From Patiria pectinifera (Eukaryota > Echinodermata > Asteroidea > Valvatida > Asterinidae), in assembly GCA_029964075.1 (NCBI GenBank), contig CM057149.1:38460900-38524899 (forward strand): a stretch of 64,000 nucleotides of DNA. Reading direction: 5' to 3'. Position 1 is the stretch's first letter, and each line of letters starts with the position of its first letter. The translations under genes were made by a program, and so were the position numbers. This document shows, piece after piece, positions 908 to 37,161 of this stretch. The notes under the pieces were generated by a model. It did no database searches and had not been told where the DNA came from. It saw nothing but the letters and a program-made list of their open reading frames with translations.

Positions 908-3900
908 ATGCCGATCCGAGTTGCAGTCATCGGTGGAGGGGCAGCTGGCCTGTGTGCTGCAAGATACCTCCGCGCTAAGCCAGACGTGTTTCAGGCAGTG
1001 GTGTATGAGCAGGCTGATCAGATCGGTGGAACGTGGGTGTACACGGAAAACGTGGGGAAGGACAAGTATGGCCTGCCTGTACATTCCAGCATGTACCAAC
1101 GACTAAGGTGGGTTTTCATTAGTGCATTTTTAAATAATTATAGTATTCAGTTATTCTAAAGAGTTTGAATATTTTAAATGCGTTTATCAAGTTTTACTTG
1201 TTCAAGCCTGATCGGGCCGCTGATTGGGAATTGAGTGCACCTGTTGAAAATTGACATAAGAACTTGTAAAAATAATGCAAAAGAATTAATATATTTAAGC
1301 TAATTTTCCTCACAGAAACTCTCAAAAGTAAAAGACAAAATTTGGGAATTGACAAAAACATCCAACTTAGATGCCTTGAAGATACATCAAAAAACAAAAC
1401 TACTAAATTATTATGAAATACCTTACTTGACTGTAAGTGAATAATAGTCTCAAGCATCCCATGAAATCATGGCGCCGGCCCAATTTCATTGTCTGCTAAC
1501 CACAGAATTCCACGCTTGTCATTACCATGTTGTGCTAACAAGAAAATTTCTGCGCTAACCCTGTAAGCACAGAATCCTAAGTTACAGGATGTACGCAAGC
1601 GCAGGAGCCAAAATTCTTCGCTGACCCGTGAAATATGTTTACAGTAAGCACAGAATTTCTTGCTTCTGTAAGCAGGGATTTTCGCTAACGCTAAGCAGAG
1701 CCAGGAAATTGGGAAAGTGGAATTTTTGTATTAAATTGCCAACAATGGTCGGCCGCCCATCATTGGGGAAAGAAACAAACATTTTTCAAATTCTGCTCCC
1801 AATTTACCTAATTTATTTAGTCCACATCTGTGAATGGTTGCAAGCTACATGCAGCTAGTCTAGTTCCCTGACCAGACAATTCCCTGACATCTATAAATTG
1901 CTCCATTTCGTCTGAAATATGGTCAGGGAACCAGAAAAAAAAAATTCTTGGTTTTTCCAGCATCTATGAACACAAACCTTACAAAAGTTCAGTGTAACAA
2001 TATTTGCTATAAAATACTAACCCCCAAATCCATCTATTAATAAAAATTACAGCAAAAACAAATGTTGCATATTACCTTAAAATACAAGCAAGGACTGTTT
2101 CATCATTAATATTTGTATTACAAACAAATGCTAATTGGGTGTTGTGTATGATGGAATAATGGGCATCTTTGGAACAGCCTGTCCAAGTGTTTCCCCAAGA
2201 TTTTCATTCAGTGTTGGGGACATTTCTGCATGGGTGGGAAAGTTCATATGGTTATTTCTTCTCCATGTGGCAAATAGCTTAAAAAGTAGTGTACTTTTTT
2301 CCCAGCTTGGGGATGGGGGGGGGGGGGGGGGGGGTGCAGCCCTTAAAGGGAATGTACATCATTACTTTTGCTGTAATTTTTAGAAATGAACTATTTGAGG
2401 GGTTAGTATAATAGATTAAATATTGTTACACTGACACGTTTGAAGATTTGTGATCGAAAATGCTGGAATAACCAAGAAAAACAAAAATGTTCAAGTAGTC
2501 TGGTTCCTTGACTCCACTAACGATGAAATGGATCAATTTATAGATGCCGGAAATTTGTAAGGTAATAGAACCAGTCTAGCTGGCCTGCACCCGTTCATGA
2601 ACATATCACCAATAGCAAACAAAAATTTGGACTGAAAAAAATGGTGAATTTGGAGCAGTAGTTAAAAAATAGTTAGGTTTTTCCAACGTTGGAAATTTAT
2701 ACAAAATACCTTTTTTCTTGAAAACTAGCGGGATGCCGCGCTTCGCGCGGCACCCGCTAGATGGGTGGAGTTGACTGTTTCGTAATAATTACTGTATACA
2801 ATGAAATCTCGATAATTTAAACTCTAATAACTCCAAACAACTGTTAAGTCAAATAAAGAATCAGACCCTCTGCTGCACGCGAGCCTATTTGGATTCGCCA
2901 TCAGTCTCGCCTAAGTTGTATTTGCGTGCACATTACGTTTCCTGCGGAGATTGTGCGAGGGTCCAGGACATATTGTCAATATAGGGGAAGGGGCTAGCTA
3001 GGGTGAAGGGTGCTAGTTGGAACGCCCAATTTCCGTAAAACCCGTCAACCATGTCACCAATATTTCCGGGGATGGGGAGAAATATTTCCAGGGATGGGGA
3101 GAAATGGTTTTTGTTATAGAGGGGAGATGGTGATATTGAAATCGCTGATATTGTGGAGGTTTATGTTTGTGCTGGGATTCATACCGTTTAAATGTTGTTT
3201 GAAATTTCGCGCCGATTAGGAAGGTCTTGCTGTCAACAGGTGAATGAAATTAAGTATTTATTGCCGACCGATTGTCTCATGCGATGTCTCATTATATAAA
3301 GCTCATAAATAATGTTGTGCTAGAATATTGTCCAGTCAATTTGAACATTGATTTTTCAAGGTGCCAAACCATTAAGGACGTATACACCAACTGTACAAAT
3401 AGGTAATTTAGACGAAACGCGGTTTGATCTTGGCCTATACAAAATCGTATCCATCGTTCTCACTACAGAGGAGAGGAGGGGGCAGCCAGTGGGGGTGGGG
3501 GTTGGATATTGTGTGGGCGTCGCCAGGATTTTTCTAGAGGGGGCAAAACATATTTTGGCCCAAAAAATTCCTGGTTTTCTCAACACATTCTCGATTTATC
3601 AGTTTTAGAGGGGGGCAGGGACATTTTGCACCCCAACCCAAACCCATTAAATTCACACCACTATGACTTTGCGCCTCTTTTTATTATTGTTTTTTTTCTT
3701 TTTCGGAGTGCCCCCTCGCGACGCCCATGCCTATTTATGTTACACCTGTGAATGGTCACATATTATATTTCCGGGGAAGTGGGCAACAATTTATATTTGT
3801 TATGGTGAAGGGGGTGTTTCTTATTAAAGTAGAAGTTAATGTCATTATAGCAGTTGGTGTTTTTATGGTGGTGGGGTTGTACAGCAAAGTACTGTAACAC

Positions 3901-6900
3901 GTTCATTTGCAGAAGAGAGTAAAACTAAAAGAAAGGACATATTGGAGCACTTCATAATTATGTCAAGCACCACATGTTAAATGTATTTATTACAAAACTG
4001 TGAAAATGAAATCAGGTATACAATCAGATTTTTTTTAGTAATAATGTATTTGCAGCACTCATTACTGTACAGGGTATAGTACTTCGACAAAACTCAGGGG
4101 ATATAATTGTTGTCAGTTTTCGGAGCAATTTTCGCAAGGGACGTCGGTCCAGGCTTGTTTACCATAGGCACAAACATTCCATGAAAGACTTTCAAGCAAG
4201 ACGGCCAAAGGTTATTGTGCAATTGCATTTTTTTTTGTTAAAAGCTGTAATCATAAATAATGACAGTGGCATTGTAAGTTACAGGACAACATTTTTTTAA
4301 TGAGTGTTGGTGAAAACTCATGAGAAATGGAGGGGTATGCGAGTATGAATATTTTGTTGTGAAATTTTAAGAGTGATTATGTAACTCGGTAATCAAAGAC
4401 ATTGTTTTGTTATCAAATAAGTCTGCTTGGCCAGTAATTATCGGGTAATCATTCCATCATTATTCTTGGGTACAACTAAGCCAAGGATATAATTTAAAAA
4501 AAGGATGGACATAAAACAGCAGAAAAGAGTGATTTTTTTTTGCACTATTTCATGACTTCTAAAAATAAAATTATGGCTAGAAGGAAAATGTGTTTTGAAT
4601 TGGTAAAGAGAAAAACCAGGAATCTTGCAGTTGAACTGGAAAGAATAGGTGTGTCACGTCTTCGTCTTGAGTTGAGATTCTTGCTTTGGGAACTGGTTGA
4701 AGCATGCACTGGAGCATGCTTGGAGCATGGTTGGAGCTGGTCATGTGATGTAAGTGTCATCGAGAGTCCTGTGTAAAGGAGTTAGAAAGAAAAGAATAAC
4801 GACTAAGGTGAAGAAAACTTGTAAACAAAAATACATCGGCTAACAATAGCTCTTTATCCTGCTTGGGTTCATGTCTGTTGTGGAGTCATTTGATTTTCTG
4901 CCAGATTGTATTCTCTAATATCCACTATTCTAACTGTGTTGGTTTCAGGTTTTAGTCTTTGCCTGTATTTTTTGGTTTTTGGCCTGAGGTTTGAACTTGA
5001 TCACGTCTTTAATTTTGATTTGAGGGTTTCTTTATTAAGTTGGTTATTGGTCTTTGATTTGCAGTAAATTAATTTTGTTTTGCCTATGACTTATGAGTAT
5101 GAAAGTCATTTCTTTAAAGGAAGTTTTACGTATGATTTGCCGTGTTCTAAGATTACCACAAAGATTTAGTGTGCATAATTTGTATGGAATGAATGTACAT
5201 TTCATGGCCTATATACAAATGCAGCAGTTTTTTTTCTAGCTAGTAGTAGGCCTATAGGCCTAGGCCTAAAACAAACTAAAGCAAAATCCAAAAATAAACT
5301 ACAAACAAAGCCCAATTGTGAAATCAAGAGTTGGCAAAGTTCTACAAACATGTTCGGGTACATGTTCCAAGTGAGGCCTGTATTTACGGAGGTCATGCAG
5401 TAAATTGGCAACATTAAGCCTAGTAAGTTAACCCACGCCACGGCCAAACTCTCGATGTCCGAGGCCTCCCCCCGTACGTACAACCCTCCCCGTACAACCC
5501 TCCCCGTACTCACAAACTGAAACTCACAGTCACACTTTTCACAAACAACAATGCTTCTCATTGCCAGTGGCGTTCGAAAGAATACCACTTTTCACAAACA
5601 ACAATACATATCATAAGTGAGACTTACCGTTCAAAGAGAAAACTGGAGCAAGGAACAGATATACATCAACCATGTCAACAACGCTGTGCTGAAGAAATGT
5701 GGGGCATGCAAGTTGCATGCGCTGCATGCTCAGCGCTCATAACGAACGTATACGTGGCACGTAAATTATCCGGCCCGTACGCAAGATGGCCGGCGAGGCC
5801 CAATGGGGAAGGGAATTATGGGAAATAGGGTGGAAAATAGCCGGGCCCCGTTCCGCTTCCCCCACGGCCAACGCGCGCGATGAGGACGGGAGACCGGTCG
5901 GGAAAATGGCAGCGCCCCCATAATTTTCGTAATTGTAGTATAGATGACTTTACACCAGGTGCCATAATTTTACAGGATGCTTTAGACTGACATTTACCAA
6001 CATCCTAGTAAGGTATTTTGTAAACAATTGTAGTTTTGTTTTTACAGTGTTTGCGAATATTGTATATTCCCTTTAAGTATAATAGAACAGACATAGTAGT
6101 CCAAAGTGAAGGAATTTAGGAAAACTGTGTCGGTTTTTTTTTGGAGGAGGGCAGGAAAAAGTCTTTTTTTCATACGACCCAGAGTTGAGCATTACAAAAA
6201 TAGTTGTGTGAAATGCATTTCCTGGACCCTCCAAGTACAACAACTAAATGTTTTGAAGGGACTCTTTGATTGCAGAACAAACCTCCCTAAGGAGCTCATG
6301 ATGTACCCGGGTCTACCCATCACAGAGGGCGGAAGGACCTCATTCATCAAGCACAATGAAGTCCTGCAGTACATGAATCGATACGCACGGACGTACGACT
6401 TGCATAAATGTATTCAGGTAAGGCTTTGGAACATTTTAAGGCATTTTGAGCTGTTGCAATAATCGTTATGCATTACCATTATTACGACACTCACTAGAAA
6501 ACATGTAGATATTAATTGCAGACCCACCTCTGTCTGAGATTTGAATGGGCCGGCTGACCTTAGAAACTTTGGTGGTTGAGTGGTTCAGACATCAGCCACA
6601 GTAAACAGGAGGTAATGGGTTCGAGTCCCGCCCAAGAAAGTCATGAAGTTCTTTCAATAGTTTTGAGACAGCATTAAAGTATACAGTGCTAACAAAGTTG
6701 ACCCAACTTTCCTGCCAAAACAGGTGGATGAGTGGTTCAGACATCAGCGTTAGGATGTAGGCGGTGGTGGGTTCGAGTCACACCTTAGCATATCATTTGT
6801 TGATATAAGTTATGGGCTCCATGCACAAGTACACTCTCAATGGTAAGAAAGGGAGAGTTGGGGAGACCGTTAGAAAATTGATATACCAGTACCAGACAGA

Positions 6901-9900
6901 ACAGGAGTTATAAAACTAAGGGCAGAAGCCAATATTAACAGTTTGTTCTGTCATCAGTAAGCCTTTTCACTGTTTTTGCACTCAGCTTCTGACGAGGGTT
7001 CAGACTGTGAAGCCGATCGTGAACTGCAACAAAACAACCTGGGAAGTGACCGTGAAGAATGTGAAGGACCCAGACGCCACACCGCAGGTCAATGAGTTTG
7101 ATGCTGTGATGGTCTGCAATGGGTAAGTGCTTAGAGTTCAGGATTCCGTACATGAACAGTGGATGGCGCTCTGTGATCATTCGGTGACTGCTCTATGTTC
7201 CGACACCCATATGTTCCGACAACCTAGATTGTGTTACTCCCGGTTAGGGTTAGGGTTAGGGTTAGGAATAGGAATATGTGCAGTCGGAACATAGGGGTGT
7301 CGGAACATAGAGGTGTAACCGATCATTCTCAAGAGGTCCTTGAGTGGGACGCAAAGTCTGCATGCAAGTATGGGGGAAGCACGTGTAACCTGGAAAAATG
7401 ATACACCTGGGGAACTCGCAAAAACTACTACAACTAAAGTAAACTTGGGATCTTTGAAGGGAAAAGTCTGGAGGAGATTGAATTAATAGGGACAAGGGAC
7501 ACAAATTCTAGATTTCGAACAAACAAAAAAGACAAAAAGAATTTATTTACAAGAACATTCAAAATGACCAGATAATTATAAAACCAAGACCACGAAAATC
7601 AAGACTAAGAGCAAAGACTAAACCCTAAAACCAAAACTAAAAGAAACTTAAACCAAGTTAAAAAACCAACACAGTGTGTATAGTGAGTAGACCTTCCAAG
7701 ACACTTTGGAGGAAAATCAATGACTCTAGCAGAAATGAAACACACAGCGCAGGGCACACCCAAGAAAAAGGGGAAAAAGAGGAACTCAAAAATATATTGC
7801 TCTCTTCTCTGCTGCTGGTCTGCTACTGAGGGGTCTGTGGTCTTACAGGGTGGCAGGGCACATGGTCTTGGGGGAAGGGGACCAATGGCATGAGTCTAAT
7901 TTACATACAATGTGGACTGTTACTGGGGAAAGCTAATCAGGGGGAAACACTACTATGAAAGGGTTGGGGGAAGCTAATAAAAAGGCTGGATTTACTAAGG
8001 GGGGCTACTCCTATACTAAAGCAATACAAAAAGTACTTTGGAAAAATACAAGTTAAATTTGGCCCTGCCACACACGCACATGAAAACCTGCATCACCATC
8101 ACATAAGCACCAGCAGCCGCTTTCACTGAACTTTACGCAATGGCGTAGCCCCTCTTGCACCACAATTTATTGCGTAAGTTGCGCAACATTTCAGTTATGA
8201 CACATTTTGTGAAAGTTTCATAGTGCGTAAGTCAGCGTCTTGTGCAACAAATTATGGCATAACTCATCAGTTACGTCTGTAAGTTGTGGTGTAGCGACTG
8301 AAAATGACCTATCAGCAAATCTTTATCATTGTGAGCCTGCTATTTCTGATCAAGGTTGATACAGGACACTCACAGCTTTGTGTTTGAAGTAAATGAATTG
8401 CTGTTTTACTCATGATGTAATTTTTTAGAGATGCTGCACAATTCTGAAGAAAGTCAGACAAAACTACTCTCCAGTAAGATTCCTGAATCCTTCAAAATTC
8501 TCTAGTGTGCTGTAAAATGTTATTCGATATTAAATGGGCGTGAAGCCCCACAGCCATGTTGAGTATTTGTGACGGGGCTTACCTTTTTTGGGATCCTTCA
8601 AATTCCTCCTGGCGGTCTGAAACTTCTGGGAGTGGTGGTTCTTTCAACACTTGTATGTGACTCCACTGTGTCTAATGTTTTATAAAGTGACAGAACTGTT
8701 TGTGGCAGGTCTGCCTATCAACATTTATGGGTAGACACCGTCCGATCCATTGATTAAGTGAATCAATCAAAAAGGGACAATAGATTTGCGGAGAATCAAA
8801 GACGTTAGAATTCAACAACTGTTTGTCTTCTAAACACACGGTGATAATAAATGAGATGATACTCTGTTTCAAGTCGTTGATTTAAGTATAGACGGGGTTT
8901 AGGAAATCAATCAATACATCAGTTACCATTCACTAGAATTATACAATACCCATAAACTAAAAGATCACTATGAAAATCACTGTGAGATCCATCTGATCGG
9001 GTGCCCGTCAACGTCCGGCGGTAGCTACGGTCGGTCTGTGATTCTGCTGAGTCCTATGATCCAACGTGACGATGACTCGGTTGGTTCCCTGTCCAGTGAC
9101 GATGGACAATGTGGACATGGACAGTAAGTGTGGCAAAACGAATTTATTGGCATAATTTTGATCAAACTTTCTGTTTCTGTTTCTGTGGGAACGTGCTTCT
9201 CTCTACAGTCAGTATGCCGTGCCCAGTTACCCGGACATCCCTGGCTTGGAAACGTTTTCAGGAAAAGTCATCCACAGTCACGAATACCGCCACCCGGAGG
9301 ATTTCAAGGGCCAGACAGTGGTCTTGTTAGGTGCCGGACCGTCTGGCCGTGACATCTGCATCGATCTTCATACCTTCGTTAACAAAATCTACCTCAGTCA
9401 TCACATCCCTAGCCTCTCCGCGGTGCTTCCTGATAACTTACAAGAAGTCCCAGATATACGGTCTATAGACAAGGGCCGCGTGGTGTTCGCAGATGGGCAA
9501 ACCGTGGAGGCCGATGCACTGATTTTCTGCACGGGATACCTCTACAACTTCCCATTCTTGACGCCGGAGTGCGAAGTTATTGTAGACAGGAAGAGGATAT
9601 CGCCGCTGTATAAACACGTCCTGCATACCAAGCACACCTCGCTGTCTTTCATTGGAGTTGTCTGGACTATCAGCCCCTTCCAGTTACTAGCATGCCAGGT
9701 ACGGTTTGCCATGGCTGCCTTAGATGGCACCATGATCCTACCCAGCAGGGCAGACATGGACGCCGACACGCAACGTGATTACGAGTATCGTCGCGATGAG
9801 TTAAAGTACCCACATCACTACGCTCACAAGATGGACCACTTGCAGTGGGAGTACAACAAGGAGCTTCTACGGCTGGCCAACATTGTGGATGATGAAGGGG

Positions 9901-10025
9901 CTACTTTACCTCTCTTCAAGGAGCTTTATGCCCTGACTCGACGCTTGCGAGCGAAGGATCTTGTCAATTATAAGAAGCGCATCGTTGAGACATCTGACGA
10001 CTTGACTAGCTGGCAGGTTTTGTAA
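908..10025 (+). CDS. Flavin-containing monooxygenase (FMO / senecionine N-oxygenase-like), exons 1-3 plus terminal exon 4A
   Basis: Exons 908-1107, 6276-6417, 6986-7122 and 9209-10025 join in phase (2, 0, 2) into a predicted 431-aa protein. FMOs use FAD, NADPH and O2 to oxygenate nucleophilic N or S atoms, usually at the ER. Exon 1 has the FAD Rossmann motif GGGAAG (aa 9-14) and exon 2 has RTNLPKE. Exon 4A has the FMO signature FSGKVIHSHEY (176-186, FxGxxxHxxxY), the NADPH motif GAGPSG (201-206) and CTGYLYNFPF near 267-276. The length fits the short invertebrate FMO class, and I see no C-terminal membrane anchor. The start is the first ATG followed directly by the Rossmann strand. An ATTAAA lies at 10048. 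Introns 1 and 3 are long (5.2 and 2.1 kb). Three further copies of exon 4 follow downstream and could replace 4A by alternative splicing. The family call is firm; the exact orthologue and substrate are unknown. Confidence 0.92.
1480..1700. repeat. Degenerate short repeats around CACAGAATT
   Basis: Variants of 'taagcacagaatt' and 'gctaac' recur at least five times in about 220 bp of FMO intron 1. A similar texture occurs near 47240-47370. It could be decayed tandem repeat or an unrecognised element. Confidence 0.4.
1715..2085 (-). mobile_element. TTAA-family MITE, inverted partial copy
   Basis: Read on the minus strand, this stretch follows the order of the intact element at 13033-13549: the TGCTGTAATTTT start region, the GGTTAGTAT block, GTTACACTGA, CTGGTTCCCTGACC and ATTTATAGATG. 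Termini are degraded, so limits are approximate. It lies in FMO intron 1. Confidence 0.6.
2316..2334 (+). repeat. Poly-G run
   Basis: An almost uninterrupted run of about 19 G on the + strand. Similar runs occur near 28600, 34365, 37180, 37230, 40087, 56058 and 56170. Exact lengths may be unreliable in sequencing. Confidence 0.7.
3059..3102 (+). repeat. 22-bp direct repeat, two copies
   Basis: Two adjacent units, each AATATTTCC followed by GGGATGGGGAGA, differ at one base. They lie inside the Helitron insert. Confidence 0.6.
3513..3729. repeat. Short inverted-repeat element with GGGCGTCGC ends
   Basis: Left end GGGCGTCGCCAGG and right end CTCGCGACGCCC are near-complementary, and the interior is G/C-run rich. 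It resembles the better-preserved 56017-56419 element in style. Probably a degraded hAT-like MITE nested inside the Helitron. Confidence 0.4.
6571..6645 (+). repeat. tRNA-derived SINE head, copy 1
   Basis: An A-box-like GGTTGAGTGG and a B-box GGTTCGAGTCCC are spaced as in tRNA-derived pol III promoters. The arms do not form a clear cloverleaf, so this is read as a SINE fragment and not a working tRNA gene. Confidence 0.45.
6722..6786 (+). repeat. tRNA-derived SINE head, copy 2
   Basis: It repeats the phrases GATGAGTGGTTCAGACATCAG (broken by one base relative to copy 1) and GGGTTCGAGTC about 150 bp after copy 1. The two heads are a tandem or independently inserted pair in FMO intron 2. Confidence 0.42.
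7191..7312. mobile_element. Inverted-repeat element carrying telomere-like TTAGGG repeats
   Basis: Left arm 7191-7220 and right arm 7283-7312 are inverted copies built on ATGTTCCGACACC. Between them, at 7244-7266, are three TTAGGG units plus TTAGG. It lies in FMO intron 3. It may be a small MITE that captured telomeric sequence, or an expanded internal repeat. Confidence 0.55.
7313..9208 (+). other. Rest of FMO intron 3, no gene seen
   Basis: No coding exon is recognised here. The last 90 bases before 9209 (from AGTGTGGCAAAACGAATT) are shared with the sequence ahead of exons 4B-4D. A short phrase near 8673-8700 (TCTAATGTTTTATAAAGTG) also recurs at 15008 and 20092. The duplication unit therefore began within this intron. 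Confidence 0.55.
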
Positions 10026-10047
10026 CCTTCCATTTCAACCTGAATCC

Positions 10048-10053
10048 ATTAAA
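10048..10053 (+). terminator. ATTAAA poly(A) signal candidate, exon 4A
   Basis: ATTAAA lies 23 nt after the stop of exon 4A. Exon 4B has ATTAAA at 12375-12380. At the same place, exons 4C and 4D read ATTTAAA. A stronger AATAAA occurs later in the units, for example at 10799. Confidence 0.4.
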
Positions 10054-11524
10054 ATATGCAATAGCCCAATTGCCAAGACTTTTACAAAGTATAAACCAAT
10101 CGGAAAGCCCATTTCAAAGGCAATAGCATATAGTACAATGTACCAGCCATCGTTCAGATCTGTCACAAGGCAGTTGCTTTATACAATGCTTTCTTCATTA
10201 AAGTGGACCCCCCTGGCTGTACAGCGATATTGATGTCATCTATAGACAAATTAGGCGGCAGCCATTTTCTGAAGTGGCACCAGGCTTGTGCGAGTCGCGC
10301 TCAGGTACTATGCACTCCGGGCTCCTTCGCCCTATAGGAATACCAAAATGCACGATTGCCTCATCTTTGAGAACCACTACATATAGCATGGCCAGATTCC
10401 GCTACATATAGCACTATGTGTCCCAATTTGTGTTAAAACAAAGAAAGTTGGTTTGACAGTAGATTCATTGGGTTTTGGAGGGTACAGGAACTTTAAAAAA
10501 AGATTAGAGTACAGTTATGCAAGGACAGAATAATTTTGAATGAAGATATAGATATTTGATTTCAGATTTAACTTTTACTTTTTGTATTCATGATATTAAT
10601 TACTTGTTCCCTTGTTCTCAAGTAACAAGAAAAACGAGTGGTTAAAACAACGAAAACAAATGTTGAAAATGAGTGTGCTGGGTGATGATAATGAGTGTAA
10701 TACAAATGTATCTATTAAATGTATGTTTTATGATCAAACAAATGTAAAAAACTTAAGCTATGATAAAACAAATGTAAAGAATTAAGCTAAATAATATCAA
10801 TAAAAAATATATATATTTATACACATATATTTCCTCCAAAGTTGTTGTTTACAATGTACTTTCACTATTTAGTCTGGCAAAATCTTTGAAAGATAGAATT
10901 AAAAAAAAAAATGTCAGAGGAGTCAATTTCTTGTCCTAGTAAATTTTCAAGTTTTGGGGATTCAGGAACATTAATATTTTTAAAACAATATATTCTTGTA
11001 CATTTGAGTCACTGAGTCACGTCACTTGTACATAATGACGTTTTATGTTTATTTGAACTACATGTATTTGCCTATGCTTAGATTTTCATTTATATTGTGG
11101 CTGACAGGCTGGGCAGTTTTTTTTTTTTTGAGAAAATATGTGATCCAACGGCATGTCAACATTTGCTATGTGAGTGAACTGTTTTTTTAAAACAAATCAG
11201 ATTGTGTTTTTTTAAAAAACAGAGAGAGATTTGAGGGTCTTGAAACAGAGATTGGTTAACTTGACATTTCAAATAAAAAAACACAACTAATGATGGTGGC
11301 CACCCCCCCCCCTCAAAAAAAAAAAAATCCCAAACAAAACAGCAGACCTCAAAACTTGTGTACATTTCTACAACCAGTGAGATGCATGTATCACAAATTT
11401 GGAATGGAATTTTCGGAGAGTTCATGTGACGTGTGCTACATTGGCATTATAAGTGTGGCAAAACGAATTTGTTACATATTTGATAAAACTGTCTGTTTCT
11501 TTGGGAACGTGCTTCTCTCAACAG

Positions 11525-12341
11525 TCAGTATGCTGTGCCAAGTTACCCGGACATCCCTGGCTTGGAAACATTTTCAGGGAAGGTCTTCCACAGTCACGAA
11601 TACCGCCACCCGGAGGATTTCAAGGGCCAGACGGTGGTCTTGTTCGGTGCTGGACCCTCTGGCCGTGACATCTGCGTGGATCTCCACACCTTCGTGGACA
11701 AAATCTACCTCAGTCATCACATCCCGAACCTCGACGCCTTGCTTCCTGATAACCTGCGACAAGTCCCAGATATAAAGTCTATAGACAAGGGCCGCGTGGT
11801 GTTCACAGATGGGCAAAGCGTCGAGGCCGATGTGCTGATGTTGTGCACAGGATACCTCTACGACTTCCCGTTCTTGACGCCGGAGTGCGAAGTTGTCGTA
11901 GACCGGAAGAGGATATCGCCGCTGTATAAACACGTCCTGCATACCAAGCACACCTCGCTGTCTTTCATTGGAGTTGTCTGGACTATCAGCCCCTTCCAGT
12001 TACTAGCATGCCAGGTACGGTTTGCCATGGCTGCCTTAGACGGCACTATGGTCCTACCCAGCATGGCGGACATGGACGCCGACACGCAACGTGATTACGA
12101 GTATCGTCGCGATGAGTTAAAGTACCCACATCACTACGCTCACAAGATGGACCACTTGCAGTGGGAGTACAACAAGGAACTGCTACGGCTTGCTAATGTT
12201 GTGGATGATGATGGGGCTACTTTACCTCTCTTCAAGGAGCTTTATGACGCGACGAAACGCTTGCGAACTGAGGACCTTGTCAATTATAAGAAGCGCATCA
12301 TTGAGATGTCTGACGACTTGACTAGCTGGCAGGTTTTGTAA
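11525..12341 (+). CDS. FMO alternative terminal exon 4B
   Basis: This 817-nt exon is preceded by a good acceptor (CTTCTCTCAACAG) in the same phase as 4A, so exon 3 ending in ...NG can splice to it directly and give another 431-aa FMO. It keeps the FMO signature FSGKVFHSHEY, the NADPH motif GAGPSG, the CTGYLYDFPF segment and the C-terminus SWQVL. It differs from 4A at roughly 30 residues, spread over the exon, with the frame fully open. No copy of exons 1-3 lies between 4A and 4B. It could be a mutually exclusive last exon, used by read-through past 4A, or an unexpressed partial duplicate. The open frame and conserved acceptor favour use, but transcripts are needed. Confidence 0.82.
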
Positions 12342-13032
12342 CTTTCCATTTAAATTTTGTTGGAAACCTGATCCATTAAAATGTACAAGAGACCAGCCAC
12401 GAAGACTTTTACAAAGCACAAACCAATCTGAGATTTTAAAAGGCCCATTTCAAAGATGGAGGCATAGTGGCAGTTACTTGTTCAGATCTGTCATGAGACA
12501 GTTGCTTTGGCCTCCATGATGATAATGTGCTTTAAATAGGTCAATAATGTACTAGGTACCTGAATTTGTGTAAAAACAAATTTGTGTTTGAGTGTACAAC
12601 AGTGGAATTTTGGCGAAAACAGGAACTTTTTGAAATTGAAAAAAAATTAAAGAGTAATTTTATGTTCCACTTATGCAAGGAAATAATAATATTGAATGAA
12701 GTAAGTAATACATATTTGACTTCAGATTTCAATTTCGATTTTTGTATTCATAATACAAATTGCTTATTCCCTCTGTTCTCAAGTGACTACAGAAACGGAG
12801 GTTAAAACAACACAATTGTAAAAATATGTCATTTCACGACTTTTGTAAATATTTATAATGAGTATGCTGCTTGATTATAGTGACTTACCCTTCTTAACTT
12901 CAACTTAAAACTCACAAACTGTCACAAACTCTAACCCCTCACCGCTCTTGACAGTTTCTGCACAAGCTGCTCTCCAACTACCACAAATCCTATTATATGG
13001 ATTCAACTGTACAACTGTCTGAGCCTATTTAA

Positions 13033-13549
13033 AGGGAATGTACATCATTGGCTTTTGCTGTAATTTTCAGAAATGAACTATTTGAGGGGTTAGTATAATA
13101 GATCAATTATTGTTACACTGACATGTTTGAAGTTTTGTGTTCAAAAATGCTATAAAACCAAGAAAAACAAAAGTATTCTGGTTCCCTGACCCCACTAAAG
13201 CTGAAATGGATCAATTTATAGATGCCAAAAATTGTAAGGTAATGGAACCAGTCTAGCTGGCGGTTACCCATTCATAAACATGTAACCAATAGCAAACAAA
13301 ATTTGGACTGAACAAAAATTGGTAAATTTGGAGCAGTAATTGAAAAATAGTTAGGTTTTTCCAACGGTGGTCGGCTGACCACCGTTGAAAATTTATACAA
13401 AAATACCACTTTTCTTGAAAATGAGTTCACGCCAGTGCCATAATTTTACTGGATATAATGTTTTAGACTGTCATAAACATCCTAGTAAGGAATTTTGTAA
13501 AAAATTGGTAGTTTTGTTTTTCGATGTCTACAAATGTTGTATATTCCCT
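13033..13549 (+). mobile_element. Intact TTAA-flanked MITE (517 bp)
   Basis: Flanked by TTAA at 13029-13032 and 13550-13553. Ends are AGGGAATGTACATC and GTATATTCCCT. An internal GGTGGTCGGCTGACCACC palindrome lies near 13367. The paralogous position after exon 4C reads GAGCCTATTGAAGTGG with no insert (about 16884), an empty site that fixes both ends. Insertion therefore came after the 4B/4C duplication, or the element was lost from C. Confidence 0.88.
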
Positions 13550-15368
13550 TTAAGTGGTTTGGCAGGTAGAATGATCACTATGCAGGTACAGCTTGTGTAG
13601 CAGCCATTTTAAAATGGTCAATTGTACCATTATGAGGGCAGTTGGCAGATTTGGTGAAATCTGTCACCTAATGTTTTGTTTTCGATATGTAGGGCAATGC
13701 TCTGCAAATTGTCACTGAGCACAGGAGGGTTAGCTAATGAGTGTAACACAAATGTATCTATTGCATATATATTTTATATCTATGTGTATAATGATGTGAC
13801 CCAAAATGTACAGGTACATGTATTAAAAGAATTGACTCATTTGGATAGAACATCAGGTTACTTCTTTTGTTTATACCCCATTGGTTTTTAATATCAATAC
13901 GAACGATGCTTACTTTTCTTTTACATTGTAATCCAAATGCGAGGCAAGAATGCACGAAAGGCTCGCGAAGATCACGCCGAGTGCGCATGCTCGTGATATC
14001 GTCATCTACTACCCGCCTATTTCACGGCCTGCCCTGCACAGGAAGACATTAAAATTACTCAACCTTTTACTAACAAAACATATATATTTCTGCGGGTTCC
14101 AATGTGTCAAACGAGTCCACTGAAGGCTGAAGGGATTAAAAAAAAACAGTATGAAATCTTCCAATTCTGGTTGCCAGATTCCACTAAACATATAGCACTA
14201 TGTGTCCCAATTTGTGTTAGAACAAAGAAAGTTGGTTTGACAGTAGATTCATTGGATTTTGGAGGGTACAAGAACTTAAAAAAAAAAGATTAGAGTACAT
14301 TTATGCAAGGACAGAATAATTTTGAATGAAGTAATAGATATTTGATTTCAGATTTCAATTTTAATTTATGTATTCATGACATTACTTACTTATTCCCTCT
14401 GTTCTCAAGTAACAAGAAAAACGAGTGGTTAAAACAACGAAAACAAATGTTGAAAATGAGTGTGCTGGGTGATGATAATGAGTGTAATACAAATGTATCT
14501 ATTAAACGTATGTTTTATGATCAAACAAATGTAAAAAAAACTTAAGCTATGATAAAACAAATGTAAAGAATTAAGCTAAATTATATCAATAAAAAACATA
14601 TATTTATTCACATATATTTCCTCCAAAGTTGTTGTTTTCAATGTACTTTCACTATTTAGTCTGGCAAAATCTTTGAAAGATAGAATAAAAAAAAATGTCA
14701 GAGGTGTCCATTTCTTGTCCTAGTAAATTTTCAGGTTTGGGGGATTCAGGAACAAATGAGCACATAACGCATGTCAATTAATTGATTAATATTTTAAAAC
14801 AATATATCCTTCAGTTATTTGCGAGAGTCACTTGTACGACGTGGCACACTATTTTAGGCTGCCATGTTTATTTGAACTATTTGCCTCGCTTTGATTTTCA
14901 AGATTGCCCACCCTAAGAAAGGTATATTGTGGCTGACAGGCTTGGCAGTTTGAGAAAATCTGGGAGTTGTAATTTTTTTCAACATTTGTTATGTGATCCA
15001 ACGGCATCTAATGTTTTATAAAGTGACAGAATTGTGTTTTGGAAAATCAGATTCTGCATTGAGGTCTTATGAAACAGAGATGGGTAACTTGACATTTCAA
15101 ATGAAAACATACAACTAATGATGGTGGATCCCAACTTGTGACTCTAGGTGGCCACCCCCCCCCAAAAAAAAACCCAAACAAAACAGAAGACCTCAAAACT
15201 TGTGTACATTTCTACAACCAGTGAGATGCATGTATTACAAATTTGGAATGGAATTTTCGGAGAGTTCATGTGACGTGTGCTACATCGGCATTATAAGTGT
15301 GGCAAAACGAATTTGTTACATATTTGATAAAAGTGTCTGTTTCTTTGGGAACGTGCTTCTCTCAACAG

Positions 15369-16185
15369 TCACTATGCCGTGCCCAGTTACCCGAACATCC
15401 CTGGCTTGGAAACGTTTTCAGGGAAGGTCATCCACAGTCACGAATACCGCCACCCGGAGGATTTCAAGGGCCAGACGGTGGTCTTGTTCGGTGCTGGATC
15501 CTCTGGCCGTGACATCTGCGTGGATCTCCACACCTTCGTGGACAAAATCTATTTCAGTCATCACATCCCGAACATCGACGCCTTGCTTCCTGATAACCTG
15601 CGACAAGTCCCAGATATAAAGTCTATAGACAAGGGCCGCGTGGTGTTCACAGATGGGCAAAGCGTCGAGGCCGATGTGCTGATGTTGTGCACAGGATACC
15701 TCTACGACTTCCCGTTCTTGACGCCGGAGTGCGAAGTTGTCGTAGACCGGAAGAAAATATCGCCGCTGTATAAACACATCCTGCACACCAAGCACACCTC
15801 ACTGTCTTTCATTGGAGTTGTCTGGACTATCAGCCCCTTCCAGTTACTAGCATGCCAGGTACGGTTTGCCATGGCTGCCTTAGACGGCACTATGGTCCTA
15901 CCCAGCATGGCGGACATGGACGCCGACACACAACGTGATTACGAGTATCGTCGCGATGAGTTAAAGTACCCACATCACTACGCTCACAAGATGGACCACT
16001 TGCAGTGGGAGTACAACAAGGAACTGCTACGGCTTGCTAATGTTGTGGATGATGACGGGGCCACTTTACCTCTCTTCAAGGAGCTTTATGCCCTGACTTG
16101 GCGCTTGCGAGCGAAGGATCTTGTCAATTATAAGAAGCGCATCATTGAGATGTCTGACGACTTGACTAGCTGGCAGGTTTTGTAA
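15369..16185 (+). CDS. FMO alternative terminal exon 4C
   Basis: This 817-nt exon has the same acceptor and phase as 4A, and the frame is open. It keeps FSGKVIHSHEY and the CTGYLYDFPF segment. The NADPH motif reads GAGSSG, which retains the three glycines of GxGxxG. It differs from 4B at 12 of 268 residues compared. Four of these sit together near the C-terminus, where 4C has the 4A-like LYALTxRLRAKDL instead of LYDATKRLRTEDL, a sign of gene conversion with 4A. The poly(A) hexamer position is ATTTAAA. Likely an alternative last exon of the same FMO gene; use is unproven. Confidence 0.82.
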
Positions 16186-19100
16186 CCTTCCATTTAAATG
16201 TTGTTGGAAACCTGAACCATTTAAATGTACAAGAGACCAGTCACGAAGACTTTTACGAAGCACAAACTAATCTTATATTTTAAAGGCCCATTTCAAAGGT
16301 GGAGGCATAGTGCCAGCTAGGTCTGTCTTGAGGCAGTTGCTTTGTACAATGCTTTCGCCATTGAAGGGGGCCTACATGATAATAGTGTGCTTCAATAGGT
16401 CTATAATGTACTAGGTACCTGAATTTGTGTAAAAACAAATTTAGATTTGAGTGTACAACAGTGGAATTTTGGAGAAAAAAGGAACTTTTTGAAATTGAAA
16501 AAAAAAATTAAAAAGTAACTTAATGTTCCTCTTATGCGAGGAAACAATAATATTGAATGAAGTAAGTAATACATATTTGACTTCAGATTTCAATTTCGAT
16601 TTTTGTATTCATAATATAAATTACTTATTCCCTCTGTTCTCAAGTGACTACAGAAACAGAGGTTAAAACAACACAATTGTAAAAATATGTCATTTCACGA
16701 CTTTTAAGTTTTATAAATATTTATAATGAGTGTGCTGCTTGATTATACATGTAGTGACTAACCCTCCTTAACTTCAACTTAAAACTCACAAACTGTCACA
16801 AACTCTAACCCCCACTGCTCTTGACGGTTTTTGTACAAGCTGCTCTCCAACTGCCACAAATCCTTATGGATCCAACTGTCAGAGCCTATTGAAGTGGTTT
16901 TGCAGATAGTATGACAACTGATGCAGGTAGCAGCCATTTTAAAATTGTCAATTGTACCATTATGAGGGCAATTGGCAGATTTGGTGAAATCTGTCACCTA
17001 ATGTTTTGTTTTTGATATGTAGGGCAATGCTCTGCAAATTGTCACTGAGCACAGGAGGGTTAGCTAATGAGTGTAATACAAATGTATCTATTGCATATAT
17101 ATTTTAATGGAATTTTATGATGAAACAAATGTAAAAAATAAAGCTTAATATTTCCCCCAAAACTTATTTTTCGCCAAAGTTGTCTTAGCCTTCACTGTTT
17201 AGTCTGACAAAATCTTAGAAATATTGTATTAAAATACATGTATCTTTTAAAGGAGTCTATTTGTTTTTATAGCAAGAGTAAACTACCCGTAAATGAAAAC
17301 ATTAATTGAAGTGGGGCTGAGCATCGGAACCGGTTATCCGAGCACCCGACCATTGATGAGGAACGGGTTCCAGATTTACGGATCGGATACCCGTAACCAA
17401 CTTTACAAATTACTTATAGTAACTTCTCAGACAATGAAAAAGAAAGGTTTTGAATGTCATTTGTGGGGAATTTTCAAAATGAAAACCAGGCTACATGGGA
17501 AAACACAACAGAAGTTGCAATTTCTATAGATAAAGCTAAGACCTTTGTTATGCTGCCACCATTTCAGTCTTGTTCCATGTATCCAATAACAGTACTGAAT
17601 GATAATTCTGTATGCAAAAAGAAACCAGACTATTTTTCCTTCCAGCCTCGCTTTGGTAAAATCCAAATGGCCGCAACGTGATTAATGGTCTGTAAAGCTC
17701 ATTATACACACATGAATTACTGCATTGACGCAACAGTGTGGTAAAGTGGTAGTATCACACCCCTAAATTGAAGTTAGTGGAATGTTTTAAAATAATATGT
17801 CCTGCAGCTGAGGTTTTTTTTAATATTAGCAGCTGTCTTAACTTCCATTTCGGCCTTCGGAGATATACATGTAGTAAACACAATAGGAGTGCGCCATTTG
17901 GTTCTACGTAGACTCGTTTGTAGTTACTCAAATTGACCCAATTCAAATGGTGTTCTCCTGTTGTGTCTGCTATTGTGTTATGCATTAGATAACACAAGAA
18001 TAGTGTTTATAATATACATGGACATTTTAAACTTTCAGTTTAGTTGAATTTTAAGAGCACTCTTGCCACTAAGAGTCCAGAAAATGTCTATTTCATTAAA
18101 AAGTATGTTTTTAATAATTTCATTAAATTGTATGCTTTCTAAAGACATTATTTTTTAAATTTCAACATATTAATTAAAGAAATTGAAAGAATGAAGTTTT
18201 CAGCTATGACATTAAAGTTTAAAACTTGGATCGTTATGCAGATCAATTATTATTTTCGATAACATTTATTAAAAATACCCATGCAGTCCGAATGTGACAA
18301 ATTTATTTTGCAACATTGATGTTGACTTTGATTTCTTTCAGTTGAAGTGATTTGTTTGTACATTTGTACATTTATGCGTTGACGTTGTCATCTCCAGCTC
18401 ATCAACCTGTCCAATCAGCTGTTTCTTAACTTTCACATTCGCCGTTCATGTCTTGAGTTAGAGTGCATTTGCATATTTACACAGGTGCCAGTATATTCTA
18501 CAGGTGTTTTTCTGCACAGTGTATGGGAAGATGGGATGACACTACATTGTTAAACACAAAATGCCTGAGATAGTTTACCAATTCATATTGGTCAAGAGAG
18601 CCTGTCACGTGGGTTGTTTTCAACCACTGATAATTGTAACACCAGCTGGACACATCGCAGGAGATTTTCAGCACTACGCGCGTTCTTCGAAACTTCTTCG
18701 TACTTCGAATTACGCCCATAACGAATGTATGTGTACGGAAAAAAATATCGCTGCCGGCCAAGGGTGTTTTAAAAAACATGAAGATCGTTGAACAAAATCG
18801 TTGGAAATGTGTGAATTAGTGACTTGGGATAGTCGCCGATATTACATGGCAGGAACCGAAGCTCTAAATTTGCAGCAATTTGAATGATGTGACCCAAAAT
18901 ATACTTTCAATAATGCATGTGAAAACAGGTACATGTATTAAAAGAATTGACTCATTTGGATAGAACATCAGGCTACTTCTTTTGTTTATACCCCATTGGT
19001 TTTTAATATCAATACGAATGATGCTTACTTTTCTTTTACATTGTAATCCAAATGCGAGGCAAGAGTGCACGAAAGGCTCGCGAAGATCACGCCGAGTGCG

Positions 19101-20453
19101 CATGCCCGTGATATCGTCATCTGCTATCTGCGTATTTCACGGCCTGCCCTGCACAGGAAGACATTAAAATTACTCAACCTTTTACTAACAAAACATATAT
19201 TTCTGCGGGTTCCCATGTGTCAAACGATTCCACTGAAGGCTGAAGGGATTAAAAAAAAACAGTATAAAATCTTCCAATTCTGGTTGCCAGATTCCACTAA
19301 ACATATAGCACTATGTGTCCCAATTTGTGTTAGAACAAAGAAAGTTGGTTTGACAGTAGACTCATTGGATTTTGGAGGGTACAAGAACTTTAAAAAAAAG
19401 ATTAGAGTACATTTATGCAAGGACAGAATAATTTTGAATGAAGTAATAGATATTTAATTTCAGATTTCAATTTTTAATTTTTTCCCTCTGTTCTCAAGTA
19501 ACGAGAAAAAAGAGTGGTTAAACAACGAAAACAAATGTTGAAAATGAGTGTGCTGGGTAATGATAATGAGTGTAATACAAATGTATCTATTAAACGTATG
19601 TTTTATGATCAAACAAATGTAAAAAAAAACTTAAGCTATGATAAAACAAATTAAGCTAAATAATATCAATAAAAAACGTATATATTTATTCACATATATT
19701 TCCTCCAAAGTTGTTGTTTTCAATGTACTTTCACTATTTAGTCTGGCAAAATCTTTGAAAGATAGAATTAAAAAAAAATGTCAGAGGAGTCAATTTCTTG
19801 TCCTAGTAAATTCTCAGGTTTTGGGGATTCAGGAACAAATGAGCACATAATGCATGTCAATTAATTGATTAATATTTTAAAACAATATATCCTTCAGGTT
19901 ATTGCGAGAGTCACTTGTACACCGTGGCGCACAATTTTAGGCCGCCATGTTTATTTGAACTATTTGCCTCGCTTTGATTTTCAAGATGGCGTACCATGAG
20001 AAAGGTATATTGTGGCCGACAGGCTTGGCAGTTTGAGAAAATCTGGGAGTTGTAATTTTTGTCAACATGTGTTATGTGATCCAACGGCATCTAATGTTTT
20101 ATAAAGTGACAGAACTGTGTTTTGGAAAATCAGATTCTGCATTGAGGTCTTATGAAACAGAGATTGGTTAACTTGACATTTCAAATAAAAACATACAACT
20201 AATGATGGTGGATCTCAACTTGTGACTCTAGGTGGCCACCCCCCCCAAAAAAAAAACACACAAAAAAAAACCACAGAAGACCTCAAAACTTGTGTACATT
20301 TCTACAACCAGTGAGATGCATGTATTACAAATTTGGAATTTTCGGAGAGTTCATGTGACGTGTGCTACATCGGCATTATAAGTGTGGCAAAACGAATTTG
20401 TTACATATTTGATAAAAGTGTCTGTTTCTTTGGGAACGTGCTTTTCTCAACAG

Positions 20454-21270
20454 TCAGTATGCCGTGCCCAGTTACCCGAACATCCCTGGCTTGGAAACGT
20501 TTTCAGGGAAGGTCTTCCACAGTCACGAATACCGCCACCCGGAGGATTTCAAGGGCCAGACAGTGGTCTTGTTCGGTGCTGGATTCTCTGGCCGTGACAT
20601 CTGCGTGGATCTCCACACCTTCGTGGACAAAATCTACCTCAGTCATCACATCCCGAACCTCGACGCCTTGCTTCCTGATAACCTGCTACAAGTCCCAGAT
20701 ATAAAGTCTATAGACAAGGGCCGCGTGGTGTTCACAGATGGGCAAAGCGTCGAGGCCGATGTGCTGATGTTGTGCACAGGATACCTCTACGACTTCCCGT
20801 TCTTGACGCCGGAGTGCGAAGTTGTCGTAGACCGGAAGAAAATATCGCCGCTGTATAAACACATCCTGCACACCAAGCACACCTCACTGTCTTTCATTGG
20901 AGTTGTCTGGACTATCAGCCCCTTCCAGTTACTAGCATGCCAGGTACGGTTTGCCATGGCTGCCTTAGACGGCACTATGGTCCTACCCAGCATGGCGGAC
21001 ATGGACGCCGACACACAACGTGATTACGAGTATCGTCGCGACGAGTTGAAGTACCCACACCACCACGCTCACAAGATGGACCACTTGCAGTGGGAATACA
21101 ACAAGGAGCTTCTACGGCTGGCCAACGTTGTGGATGACGACGGGGCCACTTTACCTCTCTTCAAGGAGCTTTATGACGCGACGAAACGCTTGCGAACTGA
21201 GGACCTTGTCAACTATAAGAAGCGCAACATTGAGATATCTGACGACTTGACTAGCTGGCAGGTTTTGTAA
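20454..21270 (+). CDS. FMO alternative terminal exon 4D
   Basis: This is the fourth 817-nt copy, with the acceptor at 20451-20453 in the same phase and an open frame. The signature is FSGKVFHSHEY and the NADPH motif is GAGFSG (glycines kept, a bulky Phe in a variable position). It differs from 4B at 8 of 268 residues, including Tyr to His in the PHHY stretch and Ile to Asn near the end. At 21106-21126 the DNA matches 4A and not 4B or 4C, a short conversion tract. It is the last complete unit. Use with exons 1-3 would need a roughly 13-kb intron from 7123 to 20453. Confidence 0.8.
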
Positions 21271-22435
21271 CCTCCCATTTAAATTTTGTTGGAAACCTGA
21301 ACCATTTAAATGTACAAGAGACCAGTCACGAAGATTTTTACGAAGCACAAACTAATCTGACATTTGAAAGGCCCATTTCAAAGGTGGAGGCATAGTGCCA
21401 GCTAGATCTGTCATGAGGCACTTGCTTTGTACAATGCTTTCGCCATTGAAGGGGGCCTACATGATAATAGTGTGCTTCAATCGGTCTATAATGTACTTGG
21501 TACCTGAATTTGCGTAAAAACAAATTAAGGTTTGAATGTACAACAGTGGAATTTTGGAGAAAACAGGAACTTTTTAAATTGAAAAAAAAAATAAAGAGTA
21601 ACTCTATGTTCCACTTATGCAAGGAAACAATAATATTGAATGAAGTAAGTAATACATATTTGACTCCAGATTTCAATTTCGATTTTTGTATTCATAATAT
21701 AAATTACTTATTCACTCTGTTCTAAAGTGACTACAGAAACGGAGGTTAAAACAACACAATTGTAAAAATATGTCATTTCACGACTTTAAGTTTTATAAAT
21801 ATTTATAATGAGTGTGCTGCTTGATTATACATGTAGTGACTAATAATAATATACGTGGACATTTTAAACTACTAGTTTAGTTGAATTTTAAGAGCACTCT
21901 GGCCACTCAGAGTCCAGAACATGTCTATTTTATTAACAAGTATGTATTTTAACAATTTCATTAATTGTAAGCTTTCTAAAGACATTATTTTTTAATTTCA
22001 ACATATTAAAATTAAGATCTTTATGCAGATCAATTATTATTTGATAATAAAAATACCCATGCAGTCCGAATGTGACAAATTTATTTTGAAACATTGATGT
22101 TGATTTTGATTTCTTTCAGTTGAAGTGATTTGTATGTACATTCAGCCCATCAACCTGTTTCGATTAGCTGTTTCTTAACTTTCACATTCGCCTTTTATGT
22201 CTCGAGTTATATGGTGCATTTGCATATTTACACAGGTGCCAGTATATTCTACAGGTGTTTTTCTGCACACTGTATGGGAAGATGGGATGACACTACATTG
22301 TTAAACACAAAATGCCTGAGATAGTTTACCATTTCCTATTGGTCAAGAGAGCCTGTCACGTGGGTGGTTTTCAACCACTGATAATTGTAACACCAGCTGG
22401 ACACATCGCAGGAGATTTTTAGCCCTACGCGCGCA

Positions 22436-23358
22436 AGGCACGGGTCTCGGCACATACCGTAGACATGCCGACTAGTGATTTATTTTTCCATACCACATGG
22501 AGGTACCGCATGCTGGCTACTATACCGGGTGGATAAAAAAAAACCCGAAACCGAGATATTATTGCTAATTGGAACAGAAGTAGGGCACATTGTGAATCAA
22601 AAGGAGATATTCTCTGTTAGGGTTGAATCTCCTCTTTAAAATGACACCCTGATTATGTCATTACATTCACGGTTGACCGAGCAGTGACCAATTTTAGGAA
22701 AGGGTCTATTTAGAAAATTGCGCCACTTTTCAATTGTGTGTGTGTGTCTGTGTGCTCTTGTATTGTATAACGCTCGAGGACAGACAACAAAAGGAGCACA
22801 AAGGAGCCTTTGACCCTCGGACGACGGTGCCTATTGTTAAAACCGGTCCTCGATCGTACGGTTATGTACTTAGTCTATGGGAAAGTGTTATATTAGAGGG
22901 CCAAAGGAAAACACAATACAGTCGAGTCTCGTTAATACAAACTCGTTCGGACCTAGCCAAATTGTTTGTTATATCAGAATTTTATATTAAGAGGAACATC
23001 AGTCCCATTCTTTGTGCACATAAATGCACAGTCGGGACTAAGGCTTTATGTTTGTTATAGCCAGAATTTTGTATTAACAGAGTTTGTACTAACGAGATTC
23101 GACTGTAGTTGTCCTCAGGCGTATAGTAAAAAAAGACGATGGGTGTGTGTGTGTGGTTTTTTTTTGTGTGGCGTCATTTGTCACAGAGTAAAGGCTATGG
23201 TTGCCAATCAATGCAGGTGGGGAAAAAAGGGATTTCACCATGAAAAGTGGCGCATTTCTCTTGTCAGACATTCGAAACATTTTTCTTTTACTAATATGTG
23301 GTTTGGAGGATTTTTTTCAAGGGAAAATAAAGTCCGAGAACCTGACTTGCAACTCAAC
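22436..23358. mobile_element. About 0.9-kb insertion in the unit after exon 4D
   Basis: The 4C-4D spacer (near 18690) continues straight from the ACGCGCG phrase into TACTTCGAA with about 18 bases between. After 4D the same two phrases are separated by about 0.92 kb. The insert contains a TG microsatellite (22736-22752) and the TA-flanked MITE at 22919-23105. No clean target duplication is visible, so the type is unknown. Confidence 0.5.
22919..23105. mobile_element. Tc1/mariner-pogo-like MITE (187 bp)
   Basis: Ends CAGTCGAGTCTCGTTAATAC and its inverted counterpart GTACTAACGAGATTCGACTG are flanked by TA on both sides. The end sequence and TA target site are typical of pogo/Tigger-type MITEs. 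No coding capacity. Confidence 0.75.
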
Positions 23359-23910
23359 GTACTTCGAAATACGCCCATAACGAATGTATATGTACGGAAA
23401 AAATATCGCGGCCGGCCAAAGGTGTTTTACAAAACATGAAGACTTTTTGAACAAAATCGTTGGAAATGTGTGAATTAGTGACTTGGGATAGTCGCCGATA
23501 TTACATGGCAGGAACCGAAGCTCTAAATTTGCAGCAATTTGAATGATGTGACCCAAAATAAACTTTCAATAATGCATGTGAAAACAGGTACATGTATTAA
23601 AAGAATTGACTCATTTGGATAGAACATCAGGTTACTTCTTTTGTTTATACCCCATTGGTTTTTAATATCTATACGAATGATGCTTACTTTTCTTCTACAC
23701 TGCAATCCAAATGCGAGGCAAGAATGCACGAAAGGCTAGCGAAGATCACGCCGAGTGCGCATGCCCGTGAAACCGTCATCTACTACCCGCCTATTTCACG
23801 GCCTGCCCTGCACAGGAAGACATTAAAATTACTCAACCTTTTACGAACTAAAAATATATATTTCTGCGGGTTCCAATGTGTCAAACGATTCCACTGAAGG
23901 CTGAAGGAAT
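23340..23910 (+). repeat. Truncated fifth FMO-array unit (spacer only)
   Basis: It matches the spacer sequence at about 18690-19255 ahead of exon 4D, up to the CACTGAAGGCTGAAGG phrase. It then changes to unrelated sequence at about 23911. The terminal exon and splice acceptor that should follow are absent, marking the array edge. Confidence 0.75.
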
Positions 23911-36848: not shown

Positions 36849-37161
36849 ATGGCGTCCAGGCCTGCTGATGAGAATTTTGCCCATCCGTATTTCCCACTGG
36901 ACCTCTATCTTCCACACTACAGGGAAAACACGCTGCCATTCCATGTGGTGGTGGCTGTAGTCGTAGTCTCATTCGCAGTCGCCTTTCTGGCCACATGGAT
37001 GCTGGTCAGGCGGGATCGCTTCGGTCGTCTGCTGAGGTTTGAGGAGAAGGCTATACTCTGTTGGTTTGGGATGTCTGGATGCATCCATGTGATATTGGAA
37101 GGATACTTGACTCTGACCAGTGGCACTATTGCTGGCAGTAACACCATACTGGCTCAAATAT
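36849..37161 (+). CDS. EBP: EBP-C alternative first exon 1a
   Basis: This 313-nt exon starts at ATG (MASRPADENFAHPYFP) and ends at AAATAT|GTAAGT in phase 1, the same as every other EBP first exon here. It has the N-terminal hydrophobic segment, the family FGRLL...EEKAILCW stretch and GCIHVILEG with the catalytic His and Glu (aa 80 and 84 here). No exons 2-4 follow before the second first exon at 37996. It can only make a full protein (243 aa) by skipping exon 1b and splicing to 38505. It may instead be the remnant of a gene that lost exons 2-4. Its close likeness to 1b (LCWFGMSGCIHV, LAQ) shows local tandem duplication. Confidence 0.8.

Follow-up and report, generated by a model that had tools for sequence, protein, structure and literature searches.

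Does the flavin-containing monooxygenase (FMO) gene at this locus make several enzymes by choosing among tandem copies of its last exon? We read the window, that is, the whole 64-kb stretch of Patiria pectinifera DNA that was analysed, as holding one FMO gene in which tandem duplication of the last exon, but not of exons 1–3, has produced four alternatives, and put the probability of this reading at roughly 0.7. Judged from the DNA, several enzyme versions are probably made from this one gene.

By Pfam match and motifs the predicted product is an FMO. Isoform 1 scores 183 bits against PF00743 (FMO-like), for which the cut-off is 22. Taking the FAD motif as GxGxxG, the FMO signature as FxGxxxHxxx(Y/F) and the NADPH motif as GxGxxG, we find GGGAAG in exon 1 and both FSGKV(I/F)HSHEY and GAG(P/P/S/F)SG in all four last exons; a CTGY motif is present in 4/4 products. 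The best sequence matches in the PDB are 5nmw (281 bits), the PNO of Zonocerus variegatus, and 6wpu (245 bits), presumably the garlic FMO; FMOs of bacterial type, 2vq7 (167 bits) among them, come next. The part of the FMO phylogeny given in PMC10682829 that bears on these proteins has ZvPNO (5nmw), mFMO (2vq7) and garlic FMO in clade II. Going by best matches alone, we would place the array protein in the same clade. The gene is laid out as follows.

908–1107, plus strand: FMO exon 1, 200 nt, with the start codon and the FAD GxGxxG motif as GGGAAG
6276–6417, plus strand: FMO exon 2, 142 nt
6986–7122, plus strand: FMO exon 3, 137 nt, donor GTAAGT, ending two bases into a codon
9125–9208, plus strand: stretch before the first last-exon copy, 84 nt, acceptor ...CTCTACAG
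9209–10025, plus strand: terminal exon copy 1 (a), FMO signature FSGKVIHSHEY, NADPH motif GAGPSG
11525–12341, plus strand: terminal exon copy 2 (b), GAGPSG
15369–16185, plus strand: terminal exon copy 3 (c), GAGSSG
20454–21270, plus strand: terminal exon copy 4 (d), GAGFSG

Exons 1–3 have GT donors and AG acceptors. Each copy of exon 4 is 817 nt long and, joined to exons 1–3, gives a product of 431 amino acids with no internal stop (4/4). The first-pass annotation had described four open last exons of 817 nt, in phase and behind intact acceptors, and exon joining bore out its coordinates and counts. In blastn, copies b, c and d are 91–92% alike to copy a over the 817 nt, and the 84-nt stretch at 9125–9208 aligns with those preceding the other copies, with 90–91% identity over stretch plus exon. 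The likeness among the copies is far beyond chance, and all four (4/4) are tandem homologous last exons of like length, in the same phase and with a conserved acceptor.

The last exon accounts for 817 of the 1296 coding nucleotides, so that the first-pass figure of 63% of the enzyme being swapped is right as a fraction of length. As a measure of change it overstates the matter: 37 of 271 last-exon residues vary, any two copies differ at 8–34 of the 271, and the last-exon parts are 87–97% alike in protein. The swap between isoforms is therefore a subtle one.

We propose that one promoter would drive one pre-mRNA across the array, that exon 3 would be spliced onto one of the four acceptors, and that the stop codon and a poly(A) site behind the chosen exon would terminate the message. 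The yield would be up to four FMOs of 431 amino acids that have the FAD-binding front in common, vary slightly in the NADPH-binding and C-terminal regions, and may handle cofactor or substrate differently. Downstream of copy a, the first AATAAA lies at 10799–10804 on the plus strand, 774 nt past the stop, and those after copies b, c and d at 14588 (2247 nt), 17137 (952 nt) and 21590 (320 nt); these raw positions are candidate poly(A) signals, and the 2.2 kb separating copy b from the nearest one counts against the reading. Since each exon brings its own stop and a candidate poly(A) signal, exclusivity would be automatic, the acceptor that is joined ending the message. Choice of terminal exon is probably coupled to choice of poly(A) site, and untranslated exons downstream of the stop codons are possible.

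The first-pass annotation had called these mutually exclusive exons. Several selectable last exons remain the best reading, but the strict definition does not cover them, as there is a stop in all four copies: PMC3228551, where it treats the term, restricts it to internal clusters and classes similar terminal exons under multiple poly(A) sites. According to the relevant part of PMC9013439, Drosophila pip has tandem terminal exon clusters, competing RNA structures occur in PGRP-LC, CG42235 and pip, and pip is treated there among UTR exons. The FMO array resembles pip and PGRP-LC, as described in that part, in having a shared 5′ portion followed by tandem terminal exons or clusters of which one is chosen; it differs in protein family, pip encoding a sulfotransferase. 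The same part of the paper reports that choice in pip and PGRP-LC operates through competing RNA structures, whereas a crude docking test at the FMO array, of one 500-nt stretch after exon 3 against the 300 nt before each last exon, gave no consistent signal (z of −1.2, 0.8, −1.0 and −2.4 for copies a to d, 60 shuffles each).

One may also compare the array with other enzyme genes. In genes of the UGT1A type one half is shared and the other is a tandem array, the variable first exons having their own promoters; the FMO array is the mirror image of this, the last exon varying and not the first. The GSTD1 variants of Anopheles have a common 5′ exon and different 3′ exons. Anopheles GSTD1-6 is one of four GSTD1 splice variants, as stated in the portion of PMC2588609 concerned with it, and PMC4195677, in its passage on the subject, names GSTD11, GSTZ2, GSTT3 and GSTO2 as alternatively spliced Drosophila GST genes. 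As far as these passages go, insect GSTs are like the FMO array in being detoxification enzyme genes from which several enzymes arise by splicing (predicted for the FMO), and unlike it in belonging to another enzyme family and, in some Drosophila cases, in having variable first exons. For the FMOs themselves, alternative last exons are no theme in the main text of the clade II paper (PMC10682829), which contains no word beginning with "splic-", and within the terms used no description of an FMO with alternative last exons was found in the open-access literature searched. Tandem alternative terminal exons are thus already known, from pip and PGRP-LC; for an FMO enzyme they appear unusual.

Within the window, blastn finds exons 1–3 a single time. 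When the 159-residue product of exons 1–3 was run against the window with tblastn there were 8 matches, 5 of them outside exons 1–3 and with E values of 0.8 to 8. The earlier claim that exons 1–3 are single was thus sustained within the window by both programs. Extra copies of exons 1–3 hidden among the last exons were considered, the same blastn and tblastn comparisons of the window revealing none, and no protein resembling the front exons was found in the 9.9 kb upstream.

These searches bear on another way of reading the array, namely that copies b to d are trans-spliced to exons 1–3 or have short, unrelated first exons of their own. The Drosophila precedents with several 3′-terminal exons, to which PMC3228551 refers in the part concerned, lend it something, as does the fact that the units of copies c and d have some 1.5 kb of common DNA before the exon. 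Yet front exons coding for FAD binding are absent between the copies (tblastn, window), a protein made from exon 4 only would have no FAD site, and no observation in the array calls for trans-splicing. Nor does any copy's translation have a methionine preceding the FMO signature and NADPH motif, and for this reason, together with the missing FAD site, exons 1–3 are the only evident route to a working enzyme. We regard trans-splicing or separate first exons as very unlikely.

Against the 613-Mb assembly, exon 1 DNA gave two matches, itself and a paralogue on C18 (75%), and exon 4 DNA gave five, the four copies and the same paralogue (70%). The C18 paralogue has a four-exon structure like that of the FMO array gene and a single last exon; no second one was found in the approximately 4.9 kb examined beyond the first. 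A scan of the genome for the FMO family, whose exon counts are lower bounds, gave front to back exon numbers of at least 2:2 on each of C13, C6 and C16, 4:4 on C20 at 18.4 Mb, 6:6 on C20 at 28.2–28.4 Mb, and 1:1 on C18 at 23.56 Mb. The scan is insensitive to exons 1–3 of the array gene's subfamily, of which it listed none, and for this reason a search of the assembly with the 159-residue front-half protein was added. It returned 20 matches, three in the FMO array gene and three in the C18 paralogue, the other 14 having 32–34% identity and lying at FMO loci on C13, C20 and C6. Among the FMO loci compared, only that of the array has unequal numbers of front and back exons; the other FMO loci of this genome seem to have grown through whole-gene duplication.

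On C20, whole FMO genes, each with two main exon matches, are clustered at about 18.38–18.42 Mb and 28.23–28.42 Mb. Several back exons in these clusters have one stop within the family match, perhaps a genuine break, perhaps the effect of an alignment that spans a gap.

The DNA around the last exons is itself repeated.

13810–16761, plus strand: repeat unit with copy c, 94.7% alike to 18925–21843
18925–21843, plus strand: repeat unit with copy d, 94.7% alike to 13810–16761
23358–23921, plus strand: first portion of one more unit, ending before any exon is reached; 94.7% alike to 18699–19259

The flanking blocks of the array units recur with their order kept (blastn, window), and the array has grown through tandem duplication of a segment that reaches from the last part of intron 3 through the terminal exon into its 3′ flank, probably, we infer, by unequal crossing over. 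A transposon-borne array was considered and rejected: genome-wide, two blocks of the unit, 561 and 1171 bp long, each occur at three places, all within the FMO array, the remaining matches listed being dispersed and about 43–118 bp long (40 candidates scored in each search, out of 243 and 247).

A repeated element is found at 13026–13555, 2343–2692, 1714–2084 and 5944–6078, positions that fall within introns of the FMO gene and in the interval separating copies b and c. Its members stand in both orientations and are 73–88% alike; it is perhaps a small transposon.

The array might also be an assembly error in which haplotype copies were laid out in tandem, the true number of last exons being two or three. 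Over 2.96 kb the units of copies c and d have 94.7% identity and the same order of flanking blocks, and an allelic difference of about 5% is within reach of a very heterozygous marine animal; copies c and d could therefore be alleles rather than two places. Against this, the window holds no N, and in the exon copy a lies 8.1–9.1% from copies b to d, which are 3.5–4.0% apart from one another, while its flanks hardly align with theirs. This divergence, with the flanks, means that at least two last-exon copies are real. We consider the assembly error unlikely, and as it is compatible with the alternative-last-exon reading the odds of the two overlap.

Even if all four copies are real, one copy, be it a or another, might be the only one used, the rest being recent partial duplicates which have not decayed and have been tidied by gene conversion. 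Short conversion tracts linking copy a with copies c and d are real. With numbering that starts at the exon's second base, copy d resembles copy a around positions 653–671 and copy c resembles it at 721–749. The 26 sites at which the copies divide two against two form 8 runs, where shuffling gives 18.2 on average (P 2e-5), and in trees (iqtree2) the first 642 nt pair c with d while the full exon pairs b with d. Conversion with copy a can keep an unused copy tidy, copies b to d are recent by their small distances in the exon, and copy c looks neutral, all of which speaks for the use of a single copy.

Two observations tell against single-copy use. The exons are free of gaps, with no indels in 6/6 pairs, whereas the flanks are rich in them (4–9 gaps in 300 nt upstream, 2–11 in 500 nt downstream). 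In a simulation of neutral decay at flank rates copy b would be broken with a probability of 0.996 and copy c or d with one of 0.95; at one quarter of the indel rate these values are 0.89 and 0.70. The second observation lies in the substitutions. A dN/dS comparison of the four exons had been proposed in the first-pass annotation; carried out here, it gives a pairwise omega of 0.11–0.29 in all six pairs. Substitutions assigned to the lineages of copies b to d number 12 nonsynonymous (N) and 23 synonymous (S), where neutrality expects 71–77% N (P 8e-8 to 8e-6 for kappa 1–4). These counts take in 35 of 89 variable sites and their polarisation carries errors, as the outgroup is only 70% alike; left out of them were 20 changes on the branch of copy a (12 N, 8 S), 14 for which no polarity could be assigned (8 N, 6 S), 17 two-against-two sites of conversion type (8 N, 9 S) and 3 with three states. 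Changes private to b, c and d number 6 N and 11 S (P 3e-4 to 2e-3), and as such changes are not importable from copy a, conversion does not explain their synonymous excess.

Copy by copy the private N:S counts are 0:3 for b, 3:2 for c and 3:6 for d; for c another reckoning gives 4 N and 1 S, the two differing because the codon context used for judging differs. Branch omegas were obtained by a purpose-written codon likelihood. For copies b, c and d together omega is 0.24 (P 7e-4) when codons 1–214, upstream of the conversion tracts, are used, and 0.22 (P 1e-6) with codons 1–262. Taken singly, the branch of copy d has 0.12–0.18 (P 0.02 and 8e-5), and that of copy b 0.001 (P 0.04–0.05, resting on just 3 private changes). 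Three branches are indistinguishable from 1: those of copy c (0.68–1.37), copy a (0.36–0.46, P 0.19–0.55) and the stem, whose estimate is at its bound (P 0.47–0.63). That copy a and the stem are among them shows the single-branch tests to be weak. As a group the downstream copies are under purifying selection, neutrality being rejected, clearly for d, weakly for b and undecided for c. Selection on the group supports their being used, and we think the use of one copy only unlikely.

How might the isoforms differ, should the alternative-last-exon reading be correct? Residue 204, the x of GAGxSG, is P, P, S and F in copies a to d and Y in the C18 paralogue. Its counterpart in the alignments is Tyr207 for FMO chain 8b2d and a serine for 2xvi, and it directly precedes a serine common to the four copies, the C18 paralogue, 8b2d and 2xvi. 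Tyr207 of 8b2d corresponds to Tyr212 of 2vq7, since the matched ranges put the numbering of 2vq7 five residues ahead. The alignment suggests that residue 204 is the "back door" residue of FMOs, beside the nicotinamide, and a functional difference among the isoforms through this position is plausible. If the exons are used, the isoforms would amount to a set of natural mutants of a residue which, judged by alignment, faces the nicotinamide.

We might go further and tentatively picture a cassette gene for detoxification, in which an FMO front is combined with a growing array of back halves that exchange sequence by conversion, carry Pro, Pro, Ser or Phe at the back door and are served by one promoter, giving FMOs specific to tissue or exposure that differ in cofactor retention or substrate range. 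This is possible but rather doubtful. Were the exons used, FMOs would join those enzymes in which variety comes from exchange of a catalytic last exon and not from gene duplication, and the other FMO loci of the genome allow a side-by-side comparison of whole-gene duplication with a last-exon array.

Elsewhere in the window lies a cluster of the EBP family (PF05241), with four first-exon matches against three second-exon matches.

25422–25727, plus strand: EBP first-exon match
35414–35109, minus strand: EBP first-exon match
36879–37166, plus strand: EBP first-exon match
38002–38298, plus strand: EBP first-exon match
26877–27029, plus strand: EBP second-exon match
32951–32802, minus strand: EBP second-exon match
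38680–38850, plus strand: EBP second-exon match

Two of the first exons, those at 36.9 and 38.0 kb, stand in tandem ahead of one downstream set and mirror the FMO array. Further along, at 50906–51417 on the minus strand, overlapping long reading frames arise from a short repeated unit, by its look a tandem repeat and not a gene.
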